From: Ruminococcus sp.
GTDB lineage: Bacteria; Bacillota; Clostridia; Oscillospirales; Acutalibacteraceae
Direction: 5' to 3'
Length of the DNA: 43,959 nucleotides
Assembly (NCBI GenBank): GCA_017404665.1
Contig: JAFRBX010000041.1
Coordinates: forward strand, 1-43,959
Shown here: piece after piece, positions 1,548 to 42,718 of the stretch
Numbering within the stretch: position 1 is the stretch's first letter
Layout: each line of letters begins with the position of its first letter
Program-made: the position numbers and the translations under genes
Notes under the pieces: generated by a model
Told to the model about the DNA's origin: nothing
Databases searched by the model: none
What the model saw: the letters and a program-made list of their open reading frames with translations, nothing else

Positions 1548-1583
1548 AAAAAAATACAGACCCCGTCGCAAAGCGGGGTCTGT
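1548..1583 (-). terminator. intrinsic terminator of the candidate small RNA
   Basis: On the minus strand a 10-bp stem (ACAGACCCCG / CGGGGTCTGT, 8-nt loop) is followed by A then seven T. The plus strand lacks a T tract, so the orientation is clear. No minus-strand gene precedes it, which is why a non-coding transcript is proposed. Confidence 0.85.
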
Positions 1584-1738
1584 AAACCAAAGGGGAGTGT
1601 GTGCAAGTTTTCTTTTGGCAATAATGTTGATGAAGTATGTATTGTTTGAAGAAATCTCCCCTAAAGTCCGTGTTGATCCTGATCAGCGGTGACAGATCAG
1701 GATAACGAAAAAAGAAGGGTTTTGGGATTCCAAAACAG

Positions 1739-1788
1739 CAAAAAAGACGCCTTGAACCCCTTGGGGGATTCAAGACGCCTTTGTCTTT
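1739..1788 (-). promoter_or_regulatory. ANTAR-type antitermination leader of the candidate small RNA
   Basis: Minus strand: stem AAGAC, loop AAAGGC, stem GTCTT at 1787-1772. This overlaps the 5' arm of a 17-bp terminator stem (1744-1781) that is followed by six T. The terminator pairs fully only on the minus strand, where two positions are G-U; on the plus strand they would be A-C mismatches. This fixes the direction of transcription. Confidence 0.7.
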
Positions 1789-1797
1789 ACTGTCTGC

Positions 1798-1826
1798 ATT
1801 ATACGCTCCGACAAACCGATTGTCAA
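1798..1826 (-). promoter_or_regulatory. sigma-A promoter of the candidate small RNA
   Basis: TTGACA (minus strand, 1826-1821), 17-bp spacer, TATAAT (1803-1798). Perfect consensus hexamers; nearly the same arrangement as the glnN promoter. Confidence 0.8.
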
Positions 1827-4536: not shown

Positions 4537-4579
4537 TTCGGTTGAGATTGCCACAGCCCTAACGGGCTTCGCAATGACT
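4537..4579. repeat. GTCATTGCGA...TGGCAATCTC palindromic repeat, copy 1
   Basis: On the minus strand it reads TAGTCATTGCGAAGCCC, a short loop, then GGGCTGTGGCAATCTCAACC. It fills the nitR-dapL gap, and its TAG is the stop codon of nitR. The copy at 33096-33140 is nearly identical. Confidence 0.85.
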
Positions 4580-5162
4580 ATTTTAAGTATCGGTCGATTA
4601 CGATCTGAGCCGCCTGTCGCTTGGTGATGCCTGCGTTCATCGCCTGTTTTTCGATATACTGATGCGCGTCGCTTTCGCTCATATCTTCGTTGTCGATCAA
4701 AAACCATTTTGCCTTGTTGACGATGCGGATCTCTTGGAGCTTGTCCTCGGCCTTGCCTGCCTTTTTCTGTACCGTCCTGAGCATTTCACGCGCGGAGATC
4801 AGGAGCGATACAGCCTGCAGGATCGTCTGCTGAGAGGACGGCTTGCGAACGACAAAAACACCGTGAGAGACCGTCCTTTGCATGATATCCTCATACACGT
4901 CGGAGGACGCGAAAATCACCGCCAGCGTGCCGATATGCTCGGTCACATCGATGCACAGGCGCGAGCCGAACTCGTCTTTAAGCGGCGCGTTGACGATGAC
5001 AAAATCATAGCGCTTCTCCGTCAGGTTTCGCCTCGCCTCGCCCGCGTTCGTCACATGATCGGTATGAAAATTCCTTTGGCGCAGAAGGGAGCTTATCTCT
5101 TGCATAAACCTTTCAGACGACGAGACCACCATCGCCTGATAGCGCAGTTGTTCTAAAGACAT
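4578..5162 (-). CDS. nitR: ANTAR-domain RNA-binding antiterminator with degenerate receiver (NitR-like)
   Basis: The start is the ATG at 5162 (MSLEQLRYQAMVV) with AAGGGAGAT ahead, giving 194 residues. Residues 1-120 form a receiver-like domain without the phosphorylation set: Asn58 (VIVNAPL) replaces the acceptor Asp and the acidic pair after strand 1 is SSS, though the conserved Lys remains (VVRKPSS). A helical linker follows. The ANTAR domain (about 133-193) has KAKWFLIDNEDMSESDAHQYIEKQAM and RQAAQIVIDRYLK. ANTAR proteins bind small RNA hairpins and block terminators; clostridial NitR encoded beside glnA is the closest precedent. Its own leader carries the same hairpin as glnN, amtB and purF, which suggests autoregulation. 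Without a phospho-site the signal is probably a partner protein or ligand. Confidence 0.88.
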   Translation of the reverse strand: MSLEQLRYQAMVVSSSERFMQEISSLLRQRNFHTDHVTNAGEARRNLTEKRYDFVIVNAPLKDEFGSRLCIDVTEHIGTLAVIFASSDVYEDIMQRTVSHGVFVVRKPSSQQTILQAVSLLISAREMLRTVQKKAGKAEDKLQEIRIVNKAKWFLIDNEDMSESDAHQYIEKQAMNAGITKRQAAQIVIDRYLK

Positions 5163-5209
5163 ATCTCCCTTCACCCCTTTTATACCGTACACGGAAGTAC
5201 GATCAACGT

Positions 5210-5258
5210 AAAAAGGCGCTATTCGGGCACGAGCTCCCAAATAAACGCCTTTGTTTAT
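5210..5258 (-). promoter_or_regulatory. ANTAR-type antitermination leader of nitR
   Basis: Minus strand: stem ATAAAC, loop AAAGGC, stem GTTTAT (5258-5241), six perfect pairs. It overlaps the 5' arm of a terminator, AAAGGCG ... CGCCTTTTT (5252-5210), with an inner AUUUGGG/CCCGAAU stem. The stem differs from that of glnN at paired positions while the loop is unchanged, which is compensatory variation. Confidence 0.78.
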
Positions 5259-5265
5259 CGTGCAT

Positions 5266-5294
5266 ATTATAGCATTACTCGCATAATATGTCAA
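5266..5294 (-). promoter_or_regulatory. promoter of nitR-dapL
   Basis: TTGACA (5294-5289), 17-bp spacer, TATAAT (5271-5266) on the minus strand; perfect consensus. Confidence 0.85.
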
Positions 5295-5348
5295 TCGTTT
5301 AAAACTTCAAAGCGTTAAATTTTTTTGATAATTTTTTCACGATTACTC

Positions 5349-5377
5349 TTGACAAACGAAAAGTCGGGGCGTATAAT
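5349..5377 (+). promoter_or_regulatory. promoter of glnN
   Basis: TTGACA 5349-5354, 17-bp spacer, TATAAT 5372-5377. The nitR promoter lies divergently about 55 bp away. Confidence 0.87.
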
Positions 5378-5387
5378 GCGTGCTGTA

Positions 5388-5441
5388 AAGACAAAGGCGT
5401 TTTGAACCTGTGTGGTTTGAAACGCCTTTGTCTATTTCTTT
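5388..5441 (+). promoter_or_regulatory. ANTAR-type antitermination leader of glnN
   Basis: Hairpin AAGAC-(AAAGGC)-GTTTT at 5388-5403. The alternative is a 20-bp terminator stem (5389-5408 with 5414-5433, loop TGTGT), pairing throughout with two G-U, then ATTTCTTT. The small hairpin and the terminator share bases, so only one can form. Confidence 0.8.
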
Positions 5442-5460
5442 ATGAAAAGGAGAAGGTATT

Positions 5461-7554
5461 ATGGCAAACGTAGCAGAATATTTCGGAAGTCTGGTATTTG
5501 ACGACAAGACGATGAAAGAGCGGCTGGATCCCAAGATCTACAAGCAGCTCCGCAAAACGATCGACGACGGCGAGCAGCTGAATATTCAGGTAGCGAACGC
5601 CGTAGCCGCGGCATTGAAGGAATGGGCGGTCGAGAAGGGTGCGACCCATTACACCCACTGGTTCCAGCCGCTGACCGGTATCACCGCCGAGAAGCATGAC
5701 AGCTTTATCACTCCCTCTCCCGATGGCAGAGTGATCATGGAATTCTCCGGCAAGGAGCTGATCAAGGGCGAGCCCGACGCGTCCTCGTTCCCATCGGGCG
5801 GTCTGCGCGCGACCTTTGAAGCAAGAGGCTATACCGCGTGGGACCCCACCTCCTACGCTTTCATCAAGGGCAAGACCCTTTGTATCCCCACCGCGTTCGC
5901 TTCCTACAGCTCCGACGCGCTGGATAAGAAAACCCCGCTGTTGCGCTCCATGCAGGCGCTGAATATCCAGGCAATGCGCGTGTTAAAGCTCTTCGGCAAC
6001 GATGACGTCAAGCGCGTCGTCACCTCTGTCGGTCCCGAGCAGGAATATTTCCTTGTTCCCAAGGAGCTGTACGCAAAGCGCAAGGATTTGATCTATACTG
6101 GCCGCACGCTCTTCGGAGCGCGTCCTCCTAAGGGTCAGGAGCTCGACGATCACTACTTCGGTACCATCAAGCCGCGCGTCCTCGCGTATATGGAGGATCT
6201 CAACGATGAGTTGTGGAAGCTCGGGATCCTCGCAAAAACCCAGCATAACGAGGTCGCTCCGGCACAGCATGAGCTGGCTCCCATCTACACGACGACCAAC
6301 GTCGCGACAGATCACAACCAGCTGACCATGGAGATCATGCAGAAGGTCGCGGAGCGCCACGGTCTGGTATGTCTGCTGCATGAAAAGCCCTTCAAGGGCG
6401 TGAACGGCTCGGGCAAGCACAACAACTGGTCGATCGGTACGGATACCGGCGTCAACCTGCTCACTCCCGGTGAGACGCCGTTTGAGAACGTGCAGTTCCT
6501 GCTGTTCCTCGTAGCGGTCATCAAGGCGGTCGACGAGTATCAGGATCTGCTGAGATTGTCCGTCGCGACCGCGGGCAACGATCACCGCTTAGGCGCGAAT
6601 GAAGCGCCGCCCGCCGTCATCTCCATCTTCCTCGGCGACGAGCTGACCGCTGTACTGGACGCGATCGAGAACGATACCGAGTATGAGGGCACAAAGAAGA
6701 AATACATGAAGCTCGGCGTTGACGTTCTGCCGCGATTCAGACGCGATACCACCGACCGCAACCGCACCTCGCCCTTCGCGTTTACAGGCAATAAGTTTGA
6801 GTTCCGCATGCTCGGCTCCTCTAACTCCATCGCCTGCTGTAACATGATGCTCAACTCCGCTGTCGCGGATGTCTTGAAGCAGTTTGCGGATGTGCTGGAG
6901 GATTCCGAGGACTTTGAAAACGATGTTCACACCCTGATCCGCAAGACGATCAAGGAGCATAAGCGCATCATCTTCAACGGCAACGGCTATGACGACGCCT
7001 GGATCGAAGAAGCCGAGAAGCGCGGTCTCTCCAATCTCAAAACGACTGCCGACGCGATGCCGCATCTGCTGGACGAAAAGAATGTTGCGATGCTGACCGC
7101 TCACAAGGTATTTACCGTCGCTGAGCTTGAGAGCCGCATGGAGATCATGCTCGAGAACTATGTCAAGCAGGTCAACATCGAAGCGCTGACGATGGTGGAT
7201 ATGACCGGCAAGCAGATCATCCCCGCGATCGAGACCTATCTGATGAAGCTCTTGAAGAATGTTTCCATGAAGAAGGCGATCTCTCCCGATATCAGCTGTG
7301 CTTATGAAACCACTAACATCGAGAAGCTCTCCGCCGCCTGTGACGAGATGAGCGCCAACGCGGGTATCCTCGAGCGTTTGGTAGATCACCTCGCGCATAT
7401 CGACGATATCGTAGAGCAAGCGAACTTCGTCCGCGATGAACTCCTGCCGCAGATGGATACACTGCGCAACTATGCCGACGCGGCAGAAGCGGTCGTTGAC
7501 GCTGAGATCTGGCCGCTGCCGACCTACGGCGAGCTGCTCTTCGGAGTAAGATGA
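5461..7554 (+). CDS. glnN: glutamine synthetase type III
   Basis: Makes glutamine from glutamate, ammonia and ATP in the cytoplasm. The ATG at 5461 has AGGAGAAGG ahead; 697 residues, the GSIII size, far larger than GSI. GSIII signatures: SSFPSGG near 108, EQEYFLV near 193, [12 protein letters not shown] near 263, [17 protein letters not shown] near 308-324, LGANEAPP, and [20 protein letters not shown] enzymes are not adenylylated, so control must lie elsewhere, here plausibly in the antitermination leader. amtB follows 116 bp downstream with no clear promoter, so glnN-amtB is a likely operon. A second GSIII gene lies at 40477-42573. Confidence 0.97.
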
Positions 7555-7609
7555 GTTAGAAATAAGAACTAAGAAAGAAGAAATATGAACTTCTTAGCTG
7601 ATTGACAAT

Positions 7610-7650
7610 GTACAAAGGCGTACTCTGCTTTCGCGGGGTACGCCTCATTT
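7610..7650 (+). promoter_or_regulatory. ANTAR-type antitermination leader between glnN and amtB
   Basis: Hairpin GTAC-(AAAGGC)-GTAC at 7610-7623. The alternative is a 13-bp stem, AGGCGTACTCTGC / GCGGGGTACGCCT (7616-7645, loop TTTC), then CATTTCATATTT, a weak T tract. A TTGACA at 7603 has no -10 at proper spacing, so this looks like an internal attenuator on readthrough from glnN. Confidence 0.7.
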
Positions 7651-7670
7651 CATATTTGGAAGGTGAAACT

Positions 7671-9452
7671 ATGACAGTAGAATTTTGGTTTTTGATCGGC
7701 GCCGCTCTGGTGTTCTGGATGCAGGCAGGCTTTGCGATGGTAGAAGCGGGCTTTACCCGCGCCAAGAACGCCGGCAATATCATCATGAAAAACCTGATGG
7801 ACTTTTGTATCGGCACGGTGGTATTTGCCCTGTTGGGCTATACCATCATGATGGGGGAGGATACCTTATTCGGTCTGATCGGTATCCCGAACATGGACTT
7901 ATTTACCCACTTCAAGGCGTTCATCGCGTCTCCCGGGAACGGCGACTTTACCGCCGCTTCCACCTTTGTGTTCAACCTTGTTTTCTGCGCGACGACCGCA
8001 ACGATCGTTTCCGGCGCTATGGCAGAGAGGACGAAGTTCTCCGCTTACTGCATCTATTCGGGCGTGATCTCCCTGTTCATCTACCCGATCGAAGCGCACT
8101 GGATCTGGGGCGGCGGCTGGCTCAGTCAGCTCGGCTTTCATGACTACGCAGGCTCCTGCGCGATCCACATGGTCGGCGGTATCGCGGCGTTGGTAGGCGC
8201 GGCGATCTTAGGTCCCAGACTCGGCAAGTATGAGCGTGATGAAAACGGTAGGGTCATCAAGGTCAACGCGTTCCCCGGTCACAACATCGTTATCGGCGCT
8301 TTAGGCGTATTCATCCTGTGGCTCGGCTGGTACGGCTTCAACGGCGCGGCGGCGACCACTCCGAGTGAGCTTGCGTCGATCTTTCTGACCACCACGATCG
8401 CTCCCGCTGTCGCCACCTGCGTCACCATGGCGTTCACATGGATCAAAAACGGCAAGCCCGATGTATCCATGTGCCTGAACGCTTCTCTCGCCGGACTGGT
8501 CGGCGTGACCGCTGGGTGTGACGCCTTTGACGCGATCGGTGCCTCAGTCGTCGGCGTCGTGTCCGGTATCCTCGTCGTTGTCGTTGTCGAGGCGCTCGAC
8601 ATGAAGCTGCATATCGATGATCCCGTCGGAGCGGTAGGTGTGCATATGGCGAACGGTATCTGGGGCACGATCGCGGTCGGCCTGCTCGCGAATCCCGACG
8701 CTCCCGCAGGGCTCAGCGGCTTGCTGTATACAGGAGATTTCCGTCAGCTCGGCTTACAGGTCTTGGGCTTCGGCTCCGTCGGTATCTACGCGGCGATCAT
8801 GATGGTCATCACCTTTGTGATCATCAAAAAGACGATCGGACTGCGCGCAACGGCTGAGGAGGAGATCATGGGTCTCGACATCACCGAGCACGGTCTGCCG
8901 TCGGCATACGCGGGCTTTGCGGCGACATCGGAGGACTATTCCGTATACGGAGAGGACGTCGCCGTTGTCGCGGGGGATATACCCGTGGCTGAGGCTGTCG
9001 AAGTCAAGAGCGTTCCGTCCTTCAATAATACTGTCATTGCGAGGAGCACGACAAACGTGTCGGGCGACGTGGCAATCCCACAAAATCAAGAAGCCGTTAC
9101 CTTCACGAAGATCGAGATCATCTGCAAGGAAGCTCGGTTTGAAAAGCTCAAGAGAGCGATGGCGCAGCTCGGTATCACCGGCATGACCGTCACCCATGTC
9201 ATGGGCTACGGTTCTCAGAAGGGCAAGCCCGAATATTACCGCGGCGTTTTGGTCGATACCAACCTGCTGCCAAAGATCCAGGTCGAGATGGTCGTATCCG
9301 CGATCCCTGTCCGCGATGTGATCGAAGCGGCGAAGAAGGCGCTCTATACCGGACACATCGGTGACGGCAAGATCTTTGTTTACAACGTAGATAACGTGGT
9401 CAAGGTCCGTACCGGTGAAGAGGGCTACGCCGCTCTGCAGGATATAGAATAA
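7671..9452 (+). CDS. amtB: ammonium channel AmtB fused to a PII signal-transduction domain
   Basis: The ATG at 7671 follows GGAAGGTGAAACT; 593 residues. Residues 1-410 are an Amt/MEP channel with about eleven membrane helices and the twin pore histidines (CAIHMVGG near 166, VGVHMANGIWG near 325). Residues 478-593 are a PII (GlnB/GlnK) domain: TKIEIICKEARFEKLKRAM, the T-loop GYGSQKGKPEYYRG, and YTGHIGDGKIFV. Aligned with E. coli GlnB, the uridylylated Tyr51 position is Val, so control by uridylylation is unlikely; ATP/ADP/2-oxoglutarate sensing remains possible. A free GlnK normally plugs AmtB, so the fusion would tether the plug in a 3:3 trimer. Residues 454-470 of the linker are encoded by an intergenic-type repeat read in frame. 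Confidence 0.95.
   Translation: MTVEFWFLIGAALVFWMQAGFAMVEAGFTRAKNAGNIIMKNLMDFCIGTVVFALLGYTIMMGEDTLFGLIGIPNMDLFTHFKAFIASPGNGDFTAASTFVFNLVFCATTATIVSGAMAERTKFSAYCIYSGVISLFIYPIEAHWIWGGGWLSQLGFHDYAGSCAIHMVGGIAALVGAAILGPRLGKYERDENGRVIKVNAFPGHNIVIGALGVFILWLGWYGFNGAAATTPSELASIFLTTTIAPAVATCVTMAFTWIKNGKPDVSMCLNASLAGLVGVTAGCDAFDAIGASVVGVVSGILVVVVVEALDMKLHIDDPVGAVGVHMANGIWGTIAVGLLANPDAPAGLSGLLYTGDFRQLGLQVLGFGSVGIYAAIMMVITFVIIKKTIGLRATAEEEIMGLDITEHGLPSAYAGFAATSEDYSVYGEDVAVVAGDIPVAEAVEVKSVPSFNNTVIARSTTNVSGDVAIPQNQEAVTFTKIEIICKEARFEKLKRAMAQLGITGMTVTHVMGYGSQKGKPEYYRGVLVDTNLLPKIQVEMVVSAIPVRDVIEAAKKALYTGHIGDGKIFVYNVDNVVKVRTGEEGYAALQDIE
9032..9080 (+). repeat. GTCATTGCGA...TGGCAATCCC repeat inside the amtB reading frame
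   Basis: TGTCATTGCGAGGAGCACGA, a short loop, then TCGGGCGACGTGGCAATCCCA matches the intergenic repeat family at 4537, 33096 and 42773. It is translated in frame as TVIARSTTNVSGDVAIP in the AmtB-PII linker. Confidence 0.88.
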
Positions 9453-9542
9453 CGGGTTTTCGGGAGCCGAAACCGTTCCCTTCAAAATATCTGAATCATA
9501 ACTCTCATTAAGTTGCCTAAAAGACTGGCTCCCTTCAACCAT

Positions 9543-9571
9543 AGACCCCGAGGATCATTTCTTCGGGGTCT
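9543..9571 (+). terminator. terminator of glnN-amtB
   Basis: AGACCCCGA / TTCGGGGTCT, 9-bp stem, then GTTCTTG; the purF promoter begins five bases later. The T tract is short. Confidence 0.6.
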
Positions 9572-9575
9572 GTTC

Positions 9576-9604
9576 TTGACAAATGACGCGCTGAGTCATA
9601 TAAT
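9576..9604 (+). promoter_or_regulatory. promoter of purF-carA-carB
   Basis: TTGACA 9576-9581, 17-bp spacer, TATAAT 9599-9604; perfect consensus. Confidence 0.87.
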
Positions 9605-9609
9605 ACATG

Positions 9610-9656
9610 AAGGCAAAGACGCCTTGGATCTTCCAAAGCGTCTTTGCCATTTTTTT
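9610..9656 (+). promoter_or_regulatory. ANTAR-type antitermination leader of purF-carAB
   Basis: Hairpin AAGGC-(AAAGAC)-GCCTT at 9610-9625, five perfect pairs, with A and G kept at loop positions 1 and 4. It is exclusive with the terminator GGCAAAGACGC...GCGTCTTTGCC (9612-9648), which is followed by A and seven T. The stem differs from every other copy yet pairs perfectly. Confidence 0.8.
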
Positions 9657-9688
9657 ATGCTCAAAAACCATGAACAAGAGGTTTTATG

Positions 9689-11119
9689 ATGAACAGTACA
9701 CATGAAGAATGCGGCGTGTTCGGCATCTACAGCACGGCCGACGATGATTTAGCCGCGTTGACCTATTACGGACTGTATGCCCTGCAGCACCGCGGACAGG
9801 AAAGCGCCGGTATCGCCCTAAACGATGACGGTGTGTTCCGCTGTATCAAAGGCGAAGGCTTAATCAGCGAGGTGTTCAGCGGCGATAAGCTCCGCTCCCT
9901 CGGTACAGGTCATATCGCGGTCGGTCATGTGCGCTATGCCACCACGGGGAGCAACGCCGCGCAGAATATCCAGCCGCTCTTAGTCAATCACCATAAAGGC
10001 AGGATGGCGCTGTGCCATAACGGCAACCTGTCTAATTCCTATCTGCTGAGGACAAGGTTAGAAGAAAACGGTGCGATCTTCCATACGACGACCGACTCCG
10101 AGGTCATCTCCTATATGATCGTTCAGGAGCGACTGCGTCATGGCTCGATCGAGAATGCCGTCAGCGCGGCGATGGAGTCCATCGAGGGCGCGTACTCGCT
10201 CGTGATCTGCTCACCGCAAAAGCTGATCGCCGTCCGTGATCCGCACGGATTCCGTCCGCTGTGCTACGGCGTGACCGAAAGCGGCAGTGTGGTATTCGCC
10301 TCGGAATCATGCGCACTGGACGCGGTCGGCGCCAAGCTCGTCAGAGATCTGCGCCCCGGTGAGATGGCGATCGTCGATAAAAACGGTCTGCGATTTGACA
10401 CGGCGCACTGCGATAAAGAGCCGAAACACTTCTGCGTGTTTGAATACATCTATTTTGCGCGTCCCGATTCGGTGATCGACGGTGCGTCCGTCAGTCTGTG
10501 CCGCAGGAGAGCAGGCAGATTTCTTGCAAAGGAGCACCCTGTCGACGCGGATATCGTCATCGGCGTTCCGGATTCGGGGTTGGAGGCGGCGATCGGTTAC
10601 TCGTATGAATCAGGGATACCATATGCCATCGGTTTCACCAAGAACAAATACATCGCGCGTACCTTCATCACCCCGGGACAGGGCTCGCGTGAGGCGGGCG
10701 TGGGGATCAAGCTCAACCCGATCCGTGAGATCGTCAAAGATAAGCGCGTCGTGCTGATCGATGATTCGATCGTGCGCGGTACGACCTGCCGTCGTATTGC
10801 CGAGTTGTTATGGCAGGCAGGCGTCAAGGAGATCCATATGCGCGTCAGCGCGCCGCCCTTTGTCGCTCCGTGCTACTACGGTACCGACATCGACTCCGCC
10901 GACGTGCTGATCGCTAACCGCATGAACACCGCTGAGATCGCAAAGGAGATCGGCGTGACCTCGCTCGGTTACCTCAGCGTTGAAAATGTCAGGCTGCTGA
11001 CGGGAACGGACAGCGGCTTTTGTACCGCATGCTTCGGTGGAAGCTATCCGACCGCGATTCCCGACAAAACCGCGAAGAATCGCTTTGAAATCAAAATCAG
11101 CGAACAGCAAAAGGGATGA
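9689..11119 (+). CDS. purF: amidophosphoribosyltransferase
   Basis: First committed step of purine synthesis: PRPP plus glutamine to phosphoribosylamine. Two ATGs lie in tandem (9686, 9689); the second has better spacing from GAGG (9678-9681). A short propeptide (MNSTHEE) precedes the nucleophile Cys in ECGVFGIY, so self-processing is expected. The Ntn glutaminase half has QHRGQESAGIA and LCHNGNLSN. The PRPP loop is VVLIDDSIVRGTT. Cysteines at HFCVFEYIYF and SGFCTACFGG are placed as in Bacillus-type PurF with a 4Fe-4S cluster. It overlaps carA by 4 bp. Placing purF with carAB under a nitrogen antiterminator leader is unusual and groups glutamine-consuming first steps of purine, pyrimidine and arginine synthesis. 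Confidence 0.96.
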   Translation: MNSTHEECGVFGIYSTADDDLAALTYYGLYALQHRGQESAGIALNDDGVFRCIKGEGLISEVFSGDKLRSLGTGHIAVGHVRYATTGSNAAQNIQPLLVNHHKGRMALCHNGNLSNSYLLRTRLEENGAIFHTTTDSEVISYMIVQERLRHGSIENAVSAAMESIEGAYSLVICSPQKLIAVRDPHGFRPLCYGVTESGSVVFASESCALDAVGAKLVRDLRPGEMAIVDKNGLRFDTAHCDKEPKHFCVFEYIYFARPDSVIDGASVSLCRRRAGRFLAKEHPVDADIVIGVPDSGLEAAIGYSYESGIPYAIGFTKNKYIARTFITPGQGSREAGVGIKLNPIREIVKDKRVVLIDDSIVRGTTCRRIAELLWQAGVKEIHMRVSAPPFVAPCYYGTDIDSADVLIANRMNTAEIAKEIGVTSLGYLSVENVRLLTGTDSGFCTACFGGSYPTAIPDKTAKNRFEIKISEQQKG

Positions 11120-12228
11120 AGAAAATGTACGACAGATCAAATTTTGATCGTAAATTGATCTTAGAAAACGGCGCCGTATTTTACGGAAAGGGCTTTGGCT
11201 GTACGGACGACAGGATCGTTGAGATCGTGTTCAACACCTCGCCCGTCGGCTATCAGGAGATCCTGTCCGACCCGTCATATACCGATCAGGGCGTCGTCAT
11301 GGCGTATCCGCTCATCGGCAACTACGGCATGGCGGACGACGATTATGAGTGCGATACGCCGACCATCGGCGCGCTGATCGTGCGCGAGTACAACGGCGAG
11401 CCGTCCAACTTCCGCAGTAAAGAACCTTTAGAGGATGTGATGAAGCGTTACGGCATCGTCGGCATCAGCGAAGTCGATACCAGACGGTTGATCCGGCATA
11501 TCCGCGATCACGGCTCCTGCAAGGGGCTGATCACCTCTGCAAATACCCCGGCAGAGGCTGCAGAAAAAGCGATCAAAGAAGCCACGCTTCCGCATGACGC
11601 GGTCAGCCGCGTCAGCAGAAACCGATTTCAGAGATATGATTCAGCCGAGCATATATATCATGTCGTCGCGATCGACTGCGGTATGAAACTGAATATCGTG
11701 CGTTCGCTCACGCATAGAGGGTGCGACGTGATGGTCGTGCCGTGGAACACTTCCGCTGTAGATATCCTTTCACTTGATCCCGACGGCGTTTTCCTTTCCA
11801 ACGGCCCCGGCGATCCCGAGGATGTTCCCGAGGTGATCGATGCCGTGAAGGGGCTGATCGGCACCGTCCCGATCTTCGGTATCTGCCTGGGTCATCAGAT
11901 CCTGTCTCTCGCATACGGAGCGAAGACCTATAAGCTGAAATTCGGTCATCGCGGCGGCAATCATCCTGTCAAGAATCTGTTGACAAACAAAATCGAGATC
12001 ACCTCACAGAACCATTCCTACGCGGTAGATGCCGAGAGTCTGAAAGGGACGCCCTTGACCGCGACGCACATCAATCTGCTTGACGATACCATCGAAGGCG
12101 TAGCATGTGCAGATGACCGCGCCTTCGGCGTGCAGTATCATCCCGAATCCGCTCCGGGACCGCAGGACAGCTCCTATCTGTTTGATCAGTTTATCGACTT
12201 GATGAAGGAGGCGAAGGGTGATGCCTAA
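11116..12228 (+). CDS. carA: carbamoyl-phosphate synthase small (glutaminase) subunit
   Basis: Releases ammonia from glutamine and channels it to CarB for carbamoyl phosphate. The ATG at 11116 overlaps the purF stop (ATGA); 370 residues, normal for CarA. The N-terminal domain begins [17 protein letters not shown]. The class I glutaminase has [12 protein letters not shown], the nucleophile Cys in [14 protein letters not shown], and the His-Glu pair in [11 protein letters not shown]. It overlaps carB, as expected for a translationally coupled complex. Confidence 0.97.
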
Positions 12229-15200
12229 GAGAACAGACATCAAAAGGATCATGGTCATCGGCTCGGGCCCGATCGTTATCGGTCAGGCGGCGGAGTTCGA
12301 CTACGCAGGCACTCAGGCGTGCTTGGCGCTAAAAGAAGAGGGTTACGAGGTTATCCTGTGCAACTCTAATCCCGCGACCATTATGACGGATACGATGATT
12401 GCGGACAAGATGTATATGGAGCCGCTGACCCTCGAGTATATCGCAAAGATCATCCGCAAGGAGCGCCCCGACGCGATCCTGCCCGGCATCGGCGGACAGA
12501 CGGGCTTGAATCTGGCGATGGAGTTAGAGCGCAGGGGTGTTCTGAAAGAATGTCAGGTCGAGCTGCTCGGTACCTCCTCCGAGAGTATCGAGCGCGCCGA
12601 GGACAGAGAGATGTTCAAGGAAATGTGCGAGAGTATCGGCGAGCCGGTTATTCCGTCACAGATCACCTATGATCTTGATGAAGCAAAGAAGGCAGCGGCT
12701 AAAGTAGGCTATCCTGTCGTGCTCCGACCTGCGTTCACCCTCGGCGGTACAGGCGGCGGCTTTGCAGACAGCGAAGCTGAACTCTTGGAGATCGGCAGAC
12801 AGGCATTTGCCCTCAGTCCCGTCCATCAAGTGTTGATCGAAAAGTCCGTCAAGGGATATAAGGAGATCGAGTATGAGGTCATTCGTGACGCGAACGATAC
12901 CGCGATCACCGTCTGCAACATGGAGAACCTCGACCCGGTCGGCGTGCATACCGGCGACAGCGTTGTTGTATGCCCGTCCCAGACTTTGACCAATAAAGAA
13001 TACCATTTGCTGCGTGACAGCGCGTTGAATATCATTCGCACCTTGAAGATCGAGGGCGGGTGTAACGTGCAGTTTGCGCTTGATCCGCAGTCCTTTCAAT
13101 ACTATGTGATCGAGGTTAACCCTCGTGTGTCGCGTTCCTCGGCGCTGGCTTCTAAAGCCTCAGGTTATCCGATCGCCCGCGTCAGCGCAAAGATCGGCGT
13201 CGGACTGCGGCTCGAGGAGATTCCGCTCGCCAATACGCCCGCGTCCTTCGAGCCCGCGCTCGACTATGTCGTGACAAAGCTGCCGCGCTTTCCCTTCGAC
13301 AAATTCGCCTCCGCTCCCAACACCCTCGGCACCCAGATGAAGGCGACAGGCGAAATCATGAGCGTCGGCAGAACAATGGAAGAAAGTCTGCTCAAAGGCA
13401 TCCGCTCACTGGAAACAGGCGTCGATCATCTCTATCTCGAGAAGTTCAACGGTATGACAGCAGATGAATTGCTCAGATATATTAGCGACGGCACCGACGA
13501 CCGCATCTTTGCGATCGCCGAGCTGCTCAGGCAAAACATTGACATTGACACAATTTTTGAACAGACTGCAATCGACCGATTCTTTCTCCGCAAGCTGAGC
13601 AATATCATCGATACAGAGTGCGAGCTGAGCGCTCATATCCATGATGAAACCGCGTTATATCACGCAAAGCGAATGGGCTTCTCCGACAAGGTGATCGCGC
13701 GTTTGTGGAATACCGATGAATTGACGATCTATCATACCCGAAAAGAAAAAGGGATTTTCCCGATTTTCAAGATGATCGACACCTGCGCCTCCGAGTTCAA
13801 GAGCTATGTGCCGTACTTTTACTCCACATACGAGGAGGAGAATGAGAGTGTTCGCACCGATCAGAAAAAGATCATCGTGCTCGGCGCGGGCCCCATCCGT
13901 ATCGGTCAGGGCGTTGAGTTCGACTACAGTACCGTCCACGCGGTGCAGACCATCCGTCGCGCAGGATATGAAGCGATCATCATCAATAACAACCCCGAGA
14001 CCGTTTCCACCGACTACACCACCGCCGACAAGCTCTATTTCGAGCCGCTCACTCCCGAGGACGTCATGGCGATCATTGACTTTGAACAGCCCGAGGGCGT
14101 TATCGCGTCCTTAGGCGGTCAGACTGCGATCAACCTCGCTCAGCCGCTCATGGACAGAGGCGTGAAGATCATCGGTACAGACTGTGCGGCGATCGAGAGA
14201 GCCGAGAACCGCGACAGCTTCAACGCCATCATCAAGGAGCTCGGTATCCCGCAGCCCGCGGGCAAGGCGGTCACCTCTATCGAAGAGGGCGTCAAGGCTG
14301 CCGCTGAGATCGGCTACCCCGTTTTGGTTAGACCTTCCTTTGTCCTCGGCGGTCGCGCCATGCAGATCGTCAGCAAAGAGGAAGATTTAAGACACTACCT
14401 CAAGACTGCGGTTGAAATTGACGAGGATGAGCCCGTTCTGGTCGATAAATACATCATGGGTAAAGAGGTCGAGGTCGACGCGATCTGCGACGGCGTTGAT
14501 GTGTTCGTTCCCGGTATCATGGAGCTTGTCGAGCGTACCGGCGTACATTCGGGAGACTCTATCTCCGTTTATCCCTCTTTCTCTATCTCCGACAAGGTCA
14601 AGGGCATTATCCTCCAGTACGCGAAGAAGCTCGGTAAAGCCATCGGCATCATCGGTCTGTACAATATTCAGTTTATCGTAGATGAAAACGACGACGTTTA
14701 TATTATAGAAGTCAACCCGAGATCGTCGAGAACCGTTCCGTTCCTCTCTAAGTCCACAGGCTACTCTCTCGCGGATATCGCGACCGAGGTCATTCTCGGC
14801 AAGAGCCTGAAGGAGCAGGGAATCTTCCAGCTTTATCCCGAGGAGAAGAAGCGCTACTATGTCAAAGTCCCGGTATTCTCCTTCCAGAAGATCAAGGGTC
14901 TCGACGCTTATCTCTCTCCCGAAATGAAGTCTACAGGCGAAGCAATCGGCTACGATAAAAAGCTATCCCGTGCAATGTACAAGGCGCTCGTTGCGGCAGG
15001 CACCAAAGTGCAGAACTACGGTACCGTCATTGTCACCCTTGCCGACGAGGATAAGGAGGAGGCTATCCCGCTGGTACGTCGCTTCTACAACCTCGGCTTC
15101 AACATCGAAGCGACCGACCTGACCGCCAAGGTCATACGCGAGAACGGTATCAAGACCCGCAAGCTGGGCAAGATCAGCGAGGGCAGCACCGAGATCCTCG

Positions 15201-15400
15201 ACGCGATCCGCGCAGGCTACGTCAGCTACGTTATCAACACTCGCGCCATCATGTCAGGCGTGCACTATGAGGACGGTACGGCGATCCGTCAGACGGCTGT
15301 CGAGAACGGCGTGACTATCTTCACATCATTAGATACCGTTCGTGTATTGCTTGATGTCCTCGAGGAGACCACGCTGACGATCTCGACCATCGATTTGTAG
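12221..15400 (+). CDS. carB: carbamoyl-phosphate synthase large subunit
   Basis: Synthesises carbamoyl phosphate from bicarbonate, ammonia and two ATP. The ATG at 12221 is preferred over the GTG at 12218 because AAGGAGG is at 12205-12211; 1059 residues. Two homologous ATP-grasp halves are visible, beginning [21 protein letters not shown] and [19 protein letters not shown]. The metal and ATP sites [21 protein letters not shown] and [21 protein letters not shown] occur at matching positions. The C-terminal MGS-like allosteric domain (about 930-1059) includes [20 protein letters not shown] and ends TISTIDL. The 8-bp overlap with carA implies coupled translation. Confidence 0.98.
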
Positions 15401-16864: not shown

Positions 16865-16941
16865 TGGCGCGCTGGAAGGGACTCGAACCCCCGACCTTTT
16901 GGTTCGTAGCCAAACACTCTATCCAGCTGAGCTACCAGCGC
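16865..16941 (-). tRNA. tRNA-Arg(ACG)
   Basis: Minus strand, 77 nt with encoded CCA. Acceptor GCGCTGG / CCAGCGC with discriminator G. D-arm GCTC...GAGT, anticodon stem TTTGG / CCAAA around loop CTACGAA (anticodon ACG, read as ICG for CGU/CGC/CGA), and T-arm GGGGGTTCGAGTCCC. All stems pair. Confidence 0.97.
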
Positions 16942-17082
16942 GTGTAAATGCGTCGTAGCCACCCACTCTAAAGGCGAGCTACCAGCGCGTGTAAATGCGT
17001 CGTAGCCACCCACTCTAAAGGCGAGCTACCAGCGCGTGTAAATGCGTCGTAGCCACCCACTCTAAAGGCGAGCTGCCAGCGC
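16942..17082 (-). repeat. three tandem 47-bp repeats derived from the tRNA-Arg 5' half
   Basis: Units at 16942-16988, 16989-17035 and 17036-17082 directly precede the tRNA on its own strand. Units 1 and 2 are identical; unit 3 has one change (GCTGCCAGC). Read on the minus strand each contains GCGCTGGTAGCTC (acceptor and D-stem of tRNA-Arg) and GGCTACGA (anticodon region), with a changed D-loop and no T-arm. They look like partial tRNA duplications followed by expansion. Confidence 0.9.
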
Positions 17083-17293
17083 ATAGGTCCGATGCGTCGA
17101 AAACTCGGCGCAGGGTATGAAAACGGCTCATTGCCGTAATTGATATATTATCACATTTTTTTGGAAAAAGCAAGTAAAGATTGCGAGAAATAGAAAAAGT
17201 TTTTTCGGGGATTTTTTAGCAGAGTGTACAATAATCGCTTTTGTGCCGAATCCGCATATGATGTCCGGTTCGGCGTTGAACAGGATATACCTA
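17083..17293. other. intergenic region holding the tRNA promoter
   Basis: No gene is seen. On the minus strand TTGCTT, 17 bp, then TAATAT (around 17143-17170) is a plausible tRNA-Arg promoter; the transcript would run through the three tRNA-like repeats first. Confidence 0.4.
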
Positions 17294-18279: not shown

Positions 18280-18297
18280 AGACATCAGAAAAAACAC

Positions 18298-18390
18298 CAC
18301 GGGGGAGCTGACGCGAAAGTCGGCTGAGAAAGGGATGGATGTTTCCCTGACCCTATACCTGATACGGATAATGCCGTCGTAGGGAGCTGT
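18298..18390 (+). ncRNA. TPP riboswitch (THI element)
   Basis: The aptamer core is unmistakable: CACGGGGGAGCTG, GGCTGAGAAAGGG, GACCCTATACCTGATACGG, ATAATGCCGTCGTAGGGAG. The CTGAGA box and the ACCTGAT...GGATAAT...CGTAGGGA box match the consensus, with one base change in GATACGGAT. Thiamine pyrophosphate binding should lower expression of thiT and the pyrophosphokinase through the terminator 12 bp downstream. Confidence 0.95.
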
Positions 18391-18401
18391 AAGAAATTTT
18401 G

Positions 18402-18429
18402 GCGCCATGCGATTGCGTGGTGCTTTTTT
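18402..18429 (+). terminator. riboswitch-controlled terminator
   Basis: GCGCCATGC / GCGTGGTGC, nine pairs including two G-U, loop GATT, then six T. It is placed as the expression platform of the TPP riboswitch. Confidence 0.85.
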
Positions 18430-40459: not shown

Positions 40460-40478
40460 AAAAAAGGCACGCGTGCCT
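40460..40478 (-). terminator. terminator of the second glnN
   Basis: Minus strand AGGCA-CGCG-TGCCT then TTTTTT. The stem overlaps the last base pairs of the coding sequence. Confidence 0.78.
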
Positions 40479-42573
40479 ACTGGACGCTGAATAAAAGCTC
40501 GCCGTAGCTTGGGTAGGGCCAGTACTCGGACGCAGTGCACATCTCCATCTCGTCGGAGATCGCGCGCAGCTCATCCATCGTCTTGAGCGTTTCGTTGCAG
40601 CAGTACTCCGCGTGGCTCTGGATGTTTTTGCGGTAGGCGATCGAGCCTCCGACCTTAGAGTCGAGCTCGTCGATCTTTTCGCTGAACGCCGCGAGCAGGT
40701 CGCTGAGCTTGTTCAACAGCTTGATTTCCGCGTCGACGCGGATATCCTCGGATACCGCGCGCTTGCGCTGTATCGTTTCTGCCAGCTCGCCCGTGAACGC
40801 GGATACGGCGGGGAAGATGTCCTTCTTCGCCATGTCGAGCATCGTCAGCGCTTCAAGATCGATGATCTTGATGTAGTTTTCGAGCAGGATCTCCTGCCGC
40901 GCCCTGACCTCGGTCTCGTTGAAGATGTGATTGCGCTCAAAGAGATCGAGATTTTTCTTGGTGGTGTATTTTTTCAGCGCCTCGGGCGTGGAGCGCAGGT
41001 TCAGCAGTCCGCGGGCTTCCGCCTCGGCTCTCCACTCGTCGGTGTAGCCGTCGCCGTTGAAGATGATGCGGCGGTGCTTTTTCAGATTCTTGCGGATCAG
41101 CCGGCGTACAGCGGCGTCGATATCGTTCGCTTTCTCCAGCTCGTCGGAGAAGGAGGACAGCACGTCGGCGACCATGGTGTTGAGCATGATGTTGGGACAG
41201 GAGATGTTCAGCGCCGAGCCCAGCGCGCGGAACTCGAACTTGTTGCCCGTAAAGGCAAAGGGCGAGGTGCGGTTGCGGTCGGTGGTGTCCTTGCGGATCT
41301 CCGGCAGCGCCTCGGCGCCGGTGTTCATGATGACCTTGCCCTGGCTTTCATAGTCATCGCCGTTGATGATCGCCTCGACGATCGCTTCGAGGTCGTCGCC
41401 CAAAAACATCGAGATAATGAATGGGGGCGCTTCGTCGCCGCCCATGCGGTGGTCGTTGCCGGCGGTCGCGACAGACAGCCTTAAAAGGTCCTGATATTCA
41501 TCGACCGCTTTGATCACGGCGGTCAAAAACAGCAGGAACTGGGTGTTTTCCTCGGGCTTTTTGCCGGGCTTTAAGAGGTTTTCGCCTGTGTTTGTCGAGA
41601 GCGACCAGTTGTTGTGTTTGCCGGATCCGTTCACGCCCTTAAAGGGCTTTTCGTGCAAGAGACATACCATGCCGTGCTCTCGCGCGATGCGCTTCATCAG
41701 CTCCATCGTCAGCTGATTGTGATCAGCGGCAATGTTGACGGTGGTGAAGATCGGCGCCAGCTCATGCTGTGCGGGCGCGACCTCGTTGTGCTCGGTCTTG
41801 GCGTAGATGCCCAGCTTCCACAGCTCCTCGTCCAGCTCAGCCATAAACGCCTTGACGCGCTGCTTGATCGCGCCGAAGTAGTGATCGTCGAGCTGCTGCC
41901 CCTTCGGCGAGCGCGCGCCGAACAGGGTGCGTCCGGTATATTTGAGGTCCTTTCTGAGGTCGTACATTTCCTTGTCGATCAAAAAGTACTCCTGCTCGGG
42001 GCCGACGGTCGCGTCCACGCGGGTGATATCCGTCCTGCCTAAGAGGTGCAGGATGCGCACCGCCTCGTGATTGATGCGGTCCATCGAGCGCAGCAGCGGC
42101 GTTTTCTTGTCCAGCACGTCGCCGGTGTACGACATGAACGCGGTGGGGATGCACAGGGTGTTGTCCTTGACAAAGGCGGGCGAGGTGGGGTCCCATGTCG
42201 TGTAGCCGCGCGCTTCAAAGGTAGCGCGGATGCCGCCGGAGGGGAAGGAGGACGCGTCCGGCTCGCCCTTGATCAGCTCCTTGCCGGAGAATTCCATGAT
42301 CACATGGCCGTCGGCGTGGGGAGAGATAAAGCTGTCGTGCTTTTCGGCGGTGATGCCGGTCATCGGCTGGAACCAGTGGGTGTAGTGGGTACAGCCCTTT
42401 TCGATCGCCCATTCCTTCATTGCGTCGGCGACTGCGTTTGCGACCTCGATACTGAGCGTGGTGCCGCTTTCGATGCTCGCGTGCAGCGCCGCGTAGGTTT
42501 CCTGCGTCAGCCTGACGCGCATTTTCTCGTCATTGAATACGTTTGAGGCAAAAATGCCGGGTACGTCTATCAT
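40477..42573 (-). CDS. glnN: glutamine synthetase type III, second paralogue
   Basis: 698 residues; the ATG at 42573 ([18 protein letters not shown]) follows GGGAGGTATAT. Collinear with the GSIII at 5461 and with the same signatures: [70 protein letters not shown], and [15 protein letters not shown]. The C-terminal third diverges most. Its leader has no AAAGRC hairpin but a palindromic repeat, so it is not an obvious NitR target. Placed beside the purine-catabolic genes, it could capture ammonia freed by the deaminases and carbamate kinase, leaving the first copy for general nitrogen limitation. Confidence 0.95.
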
Positions 42574-42590
42574 ATATACCTCCCGGTTAT

Positions 42591-42718
42591 AGAGAATAGA
42601 GAAAAGATAACAGATAACAGTGTAGGGAAACGCTTCGCGTTTTGGATTCCAATTTAAAAACTGAACGAGCGAAGCGAGAATCATTCACTATTCTCTTTTC
42701 TCTATTATCTATTATCTA
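42591..42718. repeat. palindromic element with heptad-repeat arms, copy 4
   Basis: Arms AGAGAATAGAGAAAAGATAA...CAGTG and CACTATTCTCTTTTCTCTAT...ATCT; core GGGAAACGCTTCGCGTTTTG and CGAGCGAAGCGAG. It forms the leader region of the second glnN. Confidence 0.8.

Follow-up and report, generated by a model that had tools for sequence, protein, structure and literature searches.

A probable NitR nitrogen regulon in a Ruminococcus genome, run through leader attenuators with a single hexaloop hairpin

The window analysed here is one whole contig (JAFRBX010000041.1; 43,959 nucleotides, nt) of a Ruminococcus sp. genome (assembly GCA_017404665.1; 2.47 Mb, 79 contigs, ~96% complete). It carries nitrogen genes together with nitR1, which encodes a pseudo-receiver and ANTAR protein. 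Several leaders in this region contain what we call a unit, i.e. a small hairpin with a six-nucleotide loop (hexaloop) that lies within the 5′ arm of an intrinsic terminator. The features are given below, with promoters read from the sequence. Scores labelled R1 come from a covariance model built from 22 units; all eight units of the source genome were in its seed and thus match by construction.

1548..1739, minus strand: conserved noncoding RNA (ncRNA) with its own 3′ terminator (stem 1556-1583; fold z -7.2)
1740..1790, minus strand: ncRNA leader unit, AAGAC-AAAGGC-GTCTT within a terminator (R1 50.7 bits, E 9.9e-8)
1798..1826, minus strand: ncRNA promoter TTGACA-17-TATAAT, divergent from glnA1
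4578..5162, minus strand: nitR1, pseudo-receiver and ANTAR protein, 194 amino acids (Pfam ANTAR 48 bits, Response_reg 38 bits)
5209..5260, minus strand: nitR1 leader unit, GATAAAC-AAAGGC-GTTTATT within a terminator, loop 5252-5247 (R1 37.3 bits, E 1.3e-4)
5266..5294, minus strand: nitR1 promoter TTGACA-17-TATAAT
5349..5377, plus strand: glnN promoter TTGACA-17-TATAAT
5385..5441, plus strand: glnN leader unit, AAGAC-AAAGGC-GTTTT within a terminator, loop 5393-5398 (R1 53.4 bits, E 2.3e-8)
5461..7554, plus strand: glnN, type III glutamine synthetase (Pfam GSIII_N 264 bits)
7606..7653, plus strand: amtB unit in the glnN-amtB gap, GTAC-AAAGGC-GTAC within a terminator, loop 7614-7619 (R1 38.9 bits, E 5.4e-5)
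7671..9452, plus strand: amtB with a fused P-II domain (Pfam Ammonium_transp and P-II)
9576..9604, plus strand: purF promoter TTGACA-17-TATAAT
9607..9656, plus strand: purF leader unit, AAGGC-AAAGAC-GCCTT within a terminator, loop 9615-9620 (R1 38.4 bits, E 6.9e-5)
9686..11119, plus strand: purF (Pfam GATase and Pribosyltran)
11116..15400, plus strand: carA-carB, overlapping the end of purF, presumably forming one operon with it (Pfam)

A first-pass annotation of this DNA had proposed a NitR antitermination regulon, since four leaders (nitR, glnN, amtB-PII and purF-carAB) each showed an AAAGRC-loop hairpin in the 5′ arm of a terminator. Stems and loops could be located in all four. In the predicted folds the terminator (minimum energy) reaches -21.7 to -31.4 kcal/mol, the small hairpin alone -1.7 to -6.5 kcal/mol; as the terminator is far more stable, it should be the default fold. 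The ANTAR gene, which had been placed in the midst of these leaders, actually lies (4581-5162, minus strand) to the left of the noted range 5210-9656, and its leader alone falls within it. For nitR1, glnN, purF and the ncRNA the stem begins 5-10 nt after the end of the -10 box; the amtB unit sits between glnN and amtB, where no promoter of its own was found.

A covariance search finds the units. Across the whole genome (150 of 745 first-look candidates scored) R1 returned eight units, four opposite-strand mirrors and one further match at E 0.84, the four named leaders giving E values of 2.3e-8 to 1.3e-4; there is no other convincing unit in the genome. An Rfam scan gave no match on any unit in the window. 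The ncRNA unit (minus strand, 1790-1740) and those before gdhA and glnA2 are additions to the first-pass list. The latter lie on an adjoining contig, whose right end overlaps the left end of the window inside glmS, and relatives carry these genes on one contig. There, one unit precedes gdhA, and two complete attenuators follow each other in the leader of glnA2-nitR2 (locus L056, 3190-3372); the loop of the second reads AATGGC. As R1 sees it, the regulon is thus one nitrogen cluster comprising gdhA, glnA2-nitR2 (followed by glmS), the ncRNA, nitR1, glnN, amtB-PII and purF-carAB. glnA1, with a promoter-like sequence of its own, lacks a unit.

The cleanest test used 80 loci picked by the NitR protein alone (among them L180-L183 and L199, which share contigs with loci used earlier, and L184 and L185, close kin of the window). 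We took every TTGAC-16/18-TATAAT-like promoter lying up to 420 nt upstream of a gene that tblastn recognised from a protein set, and accepted any hexaloop hairpin with at least four Watson-Crick pairs, leaving the loop sequence free. Within the protein set, the identities of gdhA, glmS and dapL were checked, as were those of three glutamate synthase parts out of four, and nuoF and gltB3 are presumptive labels. A hexaloop hairpin followed 81 of the 97 nitrogen-gene promoters; it had A at loop position 1 (A1) in 79 of 81 cases, G at position 4 (G4) in 79 and overlapped a terminator in 79. At control promoter-like sites of the same loci, a hexaloop hairpin was present in 25/77, with a terminator in 12 and with both A1 and G4 in 11. 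Of these 11, five follow the ncRNA promoter and another four stand before guaA, amtB, purC and an ATP-synthase-like gene; for the control hairpin at L211 no reading frame was found. NCBIfam names guaA and purC on fragments, below whole-protein cut-offs, and gives no match for the ATP-synthase-like fragment, so that the amtB and ATP synthase identities are our own reading. An earlier promoter test (57 promoters, 54 hairpins, A1 in 52, G4 in 53) was biased, most of its loci having been chosen by R1 matches. At L258 (~1536, minus strand) an ANTAR-like unit stands before a gene read as ATP synthase subunit a (predicted), outside nitrogen metabolism.

That stem bases change with pairing kept while A1 and G4 stay constant, as first noted for the window, holds well beyond it. 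In 23 ungapped hairpins (15 distinct), 96% of stem cells hold standard pairs compared with 76% in shuffles, and the covariation score is 0.758 compared with 0.347; neither value was reached in 500 shuffles. Sliding the alignment lowers inner-stem pairing from 96% to 27-55%. Coarser counts were no better than shuffles, pairs changed on both sides (4) being equalled or exceeded in 101/500 and further pair types (8) in 270/500. A wider set of 49 distinct units, in which stem positions 1-4 pair by construction, has 72 cells changed on both sides (shuffle mean 23.9, maximum 38). Five core-genus glnN leaders carry the unit with changed stems, e.g. CACAGC/GCTGTG.

The first-pass annotation had held that missing conservation of the hairpin in nitR-bearing relatives would speak against the regulon, and the result was the opposite. 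Among 150 genomes of the family, each at least 90% complete, 25 have both a unit (R1 E <=1e-3) and NitR (at least 110 bits), 7 the unit only, 20 NitR only and 98 neither (Fisher p 1.6e-10, kinship uncorrected). This R1 search scored 38 first-look candidates per genome listed and therefore undercounts matches.

The caution that only one hairpin was visible per leader, and that this might be a compact variant, became the main point. PMC3369931 names three characterised ANTAR targets (ami, nas and eut), all of them dual, and one might argue that the leaders described here are classical dual-hexaloop targets as well, with a degenerate or overlooked second hairpin upstream (P1) or downstream (P2). 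In 78 A1/G4 units of the NitR-selected set, however, the stem begins 4-16 nt past the -10 box (up to ~21 was allowed). With a start assumed 7 nt past that box, the stem lies at about -2 to +10, and if this start is right there is no room for P1; a second hexaloop a short linker upstream, which defines the dual subtype, is thus lacking at the predicted transcript starts. Downstream, a further A1/G4 hexaloop within 45 nt was seen in 3/78, compared with 1.8 in shuffles, which is chance level.

Two units in one leader do occur, which could be taken to favour the dual reading. Among 188 leaders of glnN, gltB, gdhA, glnA, amtB and purF in the NitR-selected loci, 110 carry units by a strict rule with mirrors dropped, 91 of them one and 19 two. 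The two loops are 64-202 nt apart (the 202 pair, L180 glnN, is spurious), and each unit has its own terminator. An earlier unit set gave a similar range of 56-189 nt in eight leaders, after one spurious case (the window glnN with 5191) had been set aside; this set comprised 90 units in 81 leaders (101 candidates minus 7 without a C-G closing pair minus 4 mirrors), and in 57/81 leaders a promoter directly preceded the first unit. In eutP, by contrast, the conserved loop bases A29/G32 and A53/G56 are 24 nt apart (PMC3369931), and a 20-nt extension abolished antitermination (PMC8934654). The wide spacing and the separate terminators argue for single-hexaloop attenuators that are sometimes repeated, not for dual motifs. 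We therefore consider the dual-hexaloop explanation improbable; on the predicted starts, the leaders are single-hexaloop attenuators, and this geometry is new.

Another explanation, to which we give an equally small chance, is that the hairpin is read by a factor other than NitR, either a different RNA-binding protein or a small glutamine-sensing RNA, so that the linkage to NitR would be incidental. Binding of NitR to the hairpin is something we infer from sequence, and R1 matches occur in 6/56 genomes without any NitR match. On the other hand, A1/G4 is the published ANTAR loop rule and was recovered without assuming it, and the co-occurrence described above would be hard to reconcile with a chance linkage. 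A hairpin of 14-20 nt is moreover too small for a typical aptamer. NitR also keeps K152, E163 and M175, which are invariant and, in our own alignment with an inferred numbering offset, are the counterparts of EutV Lys149, Glu160 and Met172. At the place of EutV Tyr164, which reportedly stacks on G4, all 21 aligned NitR sequences have a histidine (His167, offset inferred), and EutV Arg142 is not kept in NitR1 in the same alignment. The weakest alternative, already disfavoured and in our view very unlikely, takes the units for ordinary intrinsic terminators with the inner hairpin as a by-product of palindromic sequence: they are near-palindromic, so that R1 also matches the mirrors, and a third of the control promoters have hexaloop hairpins, but inner-stem pairing collapses when the alignment is slid, and the A1+G4 control hairpins mostly belong to the ncRNA or precede the four genes named above.

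The source genome encodes two proteins over the cut-off of the ANTAR family (PF03861), NitR1 with 48 bits and NitR2 with 49 bits, which are 56-57% identical. Among the matches listed, the closest named relatives are from uncultured Clostridia and Ruminococcus metagenome-assembled genomes (96-97% identity), and at least 589 of the 592 pattern matches listed are NitR relatives. Response_reg scores 38 bits in NitR1 and gives no match at 1e-5 in NitR2. Ser14 and Asn58, each found in at least 90% of 21 aligned NitR sequences, occupy what we take to be the positions of the first acidic residue and of the phospho-Asp, so that the acidic pair of two-component receivers lacks its first member and the phospho-Asp is missing. 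Judging by these residues, NitR is probably not phosphorylated in the usual way, which argues against a histidine kinase and for control by a partner or ligand. In this respect NitR differs from EutV and resembles AmiR, which a literature passage describes as a pseudo-receiver protein with AmiC as its partner.

The gene order around nitR is, as far as sequence can tell, an independent link of NitR to glutamine-consuming synthesis. glnA lies directly upstream of nitR in 73/80 NitR-selected loci and in 28/29 family loci. carA-carB follow nitR in 18/18 core-genus loci examined (18 of 33 weak matches had a locus); two further loci have the order glnA-nitR-carA-carB and one has glnA-nitR-purF. In single other genomes, units precede guaA, purC and asnB. 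Membership of purF-carAB in the regulon, which the first-pass annotation had called unusual, is therefore backed by the core-genus gene order and by these units, whereas 5/7 purF leaders of the NitR-selected loci lack a unit.

Taken together, the data make it very probable that the window belongs to a NitR/ANTAR nitrogen regulon run through single-hexaloop transcription attenuators, as the best reading of the sequence. In this gut bacterium, one protein that holds a tiny hairpin at the start of each message seems to turn the nitrogen genes on. A strong housekeeping promoter would initiate constitutively, and a 4-7 bp hairpin with the loop A-N-N-G-N-N would open the RNA or lie only a few bases into it. 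If unbound, this stretch would be absorbed into the stronger terminator and transcription would stop near +50 (~50 nt), so that OFF is the default state. Under a shortage of nitrogen, probably of glutamine, active NitR would hold the emerging 5′ hairpin and deny the terminator its 5′ arm, allowing readthrough into glnN, amtB-PII, gdhA, glnA2-nitR2, nitR1, purF-carAB and the ncRNA. No separate recruitment hairpin (P1) would take part, and some leaders would act as two complete attenuators in series. Since the hairpin is the first RNA made, a recruitment hairpin may be unnecessary. NitR is probably more active when glutamine runs short; a review gives the same direction for C. saccharobutylicum, where NitR induces the genes of glutamine synthetase (GS) and glutamate synthase (GOGAT) by antitermination upon nitrogen limitation (PMC6316151). 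NitR should be gated by a partner or ligand, and GS would be the first candidate, a choice suggested by the Bacillus GS-TnrA precedent (PMC6316151) as well as by gene order and the pseudo-receiver.

Several observations weigh against this picture. In the NitR-selected loci, 16/97 nitrogen-gene promoters are without a qualifying hexaloop hairpin, and 78/188 leaders are without a unit by the strict rule, including 66/77 of glnA and 5/7 of purF. Of the 45 genomes whose NitR match reaches 110 bits, 20 have no R1 match at 1e-3 in the undercounting search, and the matches in 6/56 genomes without NitR mentioned above (R1 at 0.01) include three at or below 1.5e-4. No convincing unit stands in the nitR leaders of the core-genus nitR-carAB operons, one promoterless candidate in L039 aside. 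Finally, deletion of P1 abolished EutV induction in vivo (PMC3369931), so that a single hairpin working at transcription speed contradicts the best-studied case. Many of the core-genus nitR-carAB operons (L038-L055) share, within ~100 nt upstream of nitR, a stretch TTCTAATATGTAAT or TTCCTTTATGTAAA without a hexaloop unit (by eye); this is possibly the site of another regulator.

Parts of this system have known counterparts. Like EutV/eut, NasR/nasF and AmiR/amiE (PMC3369931, PMC8934654), it combines an ANTAR protein, an A1/G4 hexaloop, a hairpin in the 5′ arm of a terminator and nitrogen genes, and ANTAR targets upstream of nitrogen genes were already known (PMC3369931). Unlike those P1+P2 targets, it has one hairpin at the predicted transcript 5′ end, and additional hairpins each come with their own terminator. 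NitR as antiterminator of GS/GOGAT genes under nitrogen limitation was likewise known from C. saccharobutylicum (PMC6316151, PMC4676874). Compared with that system as described in these sources, we add a proposed target RNA, nucleotide-synthesis amidotransferases and an ncRNA in the regulon, and two nitR copies. In gene content there is strong overlap with the nitrogen regulons (PII, Amt, glutamate and glutamine synthases) that Ramesh et al. 2012 predicted. Their model needed two hairpins, and the single-unit leaders found here should fall outside it.

The EutV structure paper (PMC8934654) comes closest to a single-hairpin mode. It treats one hexaloop as the minimal binding site and describes binding of single hexaloops in vitro, but retains P1 for recruitment and considers it necessary for antitermination; lone sites, it suggests, may be found if no transcribing polymerase imposes a time limit. 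It further states that mycobacterial targets do not always obey the dual motif, and calls for bioinformatics on single hexaloops. In the open-licence PMC literature we found no report of a promoter-fused single-hexaloop attenuator class with covariation and NitR linkage, of amidotransferase genes in a NitR regulon or of an NitR-controlled ncRNA, and part of these findings may already be in print (Stutz et al. 2007, on C. saccharobutylicum). With their promoter-fused hairpins, the leaders form a large natural collection of single-hexaloop attenuators on which the single-hexaloop question can be tested directly. The design would be simpler than the two-hairpin one so far thought necessary and would provide a target RNA for a widespread clostridial nitrogen regulator, while tying nucleotide-synthesis amidotransferases, and probably an ncRNA, to nitrogen control. 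More tentatively, and with the odds against the whole combination, one may propose that NitR antitermination from one 5′-end hexaloop, with P1 dispensable where the target is transcribed first, is Clostridia-wide, that feedback-inhibited GS holds NitR and so gates the pseudo-receiver directly, GS being the glutamine sensor of a supply-and-demand regulon (including purF, carAB, guaA and asnB), and that the ncRNA adds another branch directed at other mRNAs.

The ncRNA, which is probably nitrogen-regulated, measures ~240 nt including its leader. The predicted transcript from ~1790 passes the attenuator and ends at a strong terminator (1583-1548). Its 3′ ~125 nt are conserved in 11/161 genus genomes (12 copies), and the preceding stretch varies; in copy L173 the 200 nt upstream contain no unit. 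Compared across 11 of the 12 copies (L170, near-identical to L169, was omitted), the pair cells of the window fold are kept in 363/363 on the minus strand and in 329 on the plus strand, with one compensatory pair. As pairing is fully kept on the minus strand and less so on the plus strand, the minus strand is likely the functional RNA. A protein gene was rejected: the body has no ATG on the minus strand, where two TTG-started frames (63 and 85 amino acids) lie, and indels in relatives disrupt the reading frame. The RNA differs from EutX/Rli55, an sRNA that also carries ANTAR hexaloops, in that EutX reportedly sequesters EutV with a dual motif and one further single hexaloop, whereas here the hexaloop would be part of an attenuator controlling the ncRNA (PMC8934654).

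Rfam gave no match to the ncRNA at gathering score. It contains a conserved C-rich stretch, CUCCCCUUUGG, resembling what we presume to be the C-rich motif of RsaE/RoxS, and membership of that family (RF01820) was rejected at 22.1 bits against a gathering score of 79 (E 0.15). A target search over 13 starts gave a best duplex z of only -2.1, for gdhA and one glnA1 start choice. gdhA was dropped as a target, and none is proposed: the 9+3 bp complementarity occurs also in genomes with no ncRNA in the retrieved loci, and the loop complement has 16 other near-matches in the genome compared with 5 for a reversed control pattern.

Some further features of the window deserve mention. The P-II domain of its AmtB is C-terminal; a gene with putative AmtB and PII domains is described for C. 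thermocellum in PMC4676874. A second glnN-like gene (40477-42684, minus strand; 61% identity) has no R1 match in front. A TPP riboswitch lies at 18291-18402, and tandem partial copies at 16941-17090 resemble the 5′ half of the tRNA gene at 16868-16941 (minus strand).

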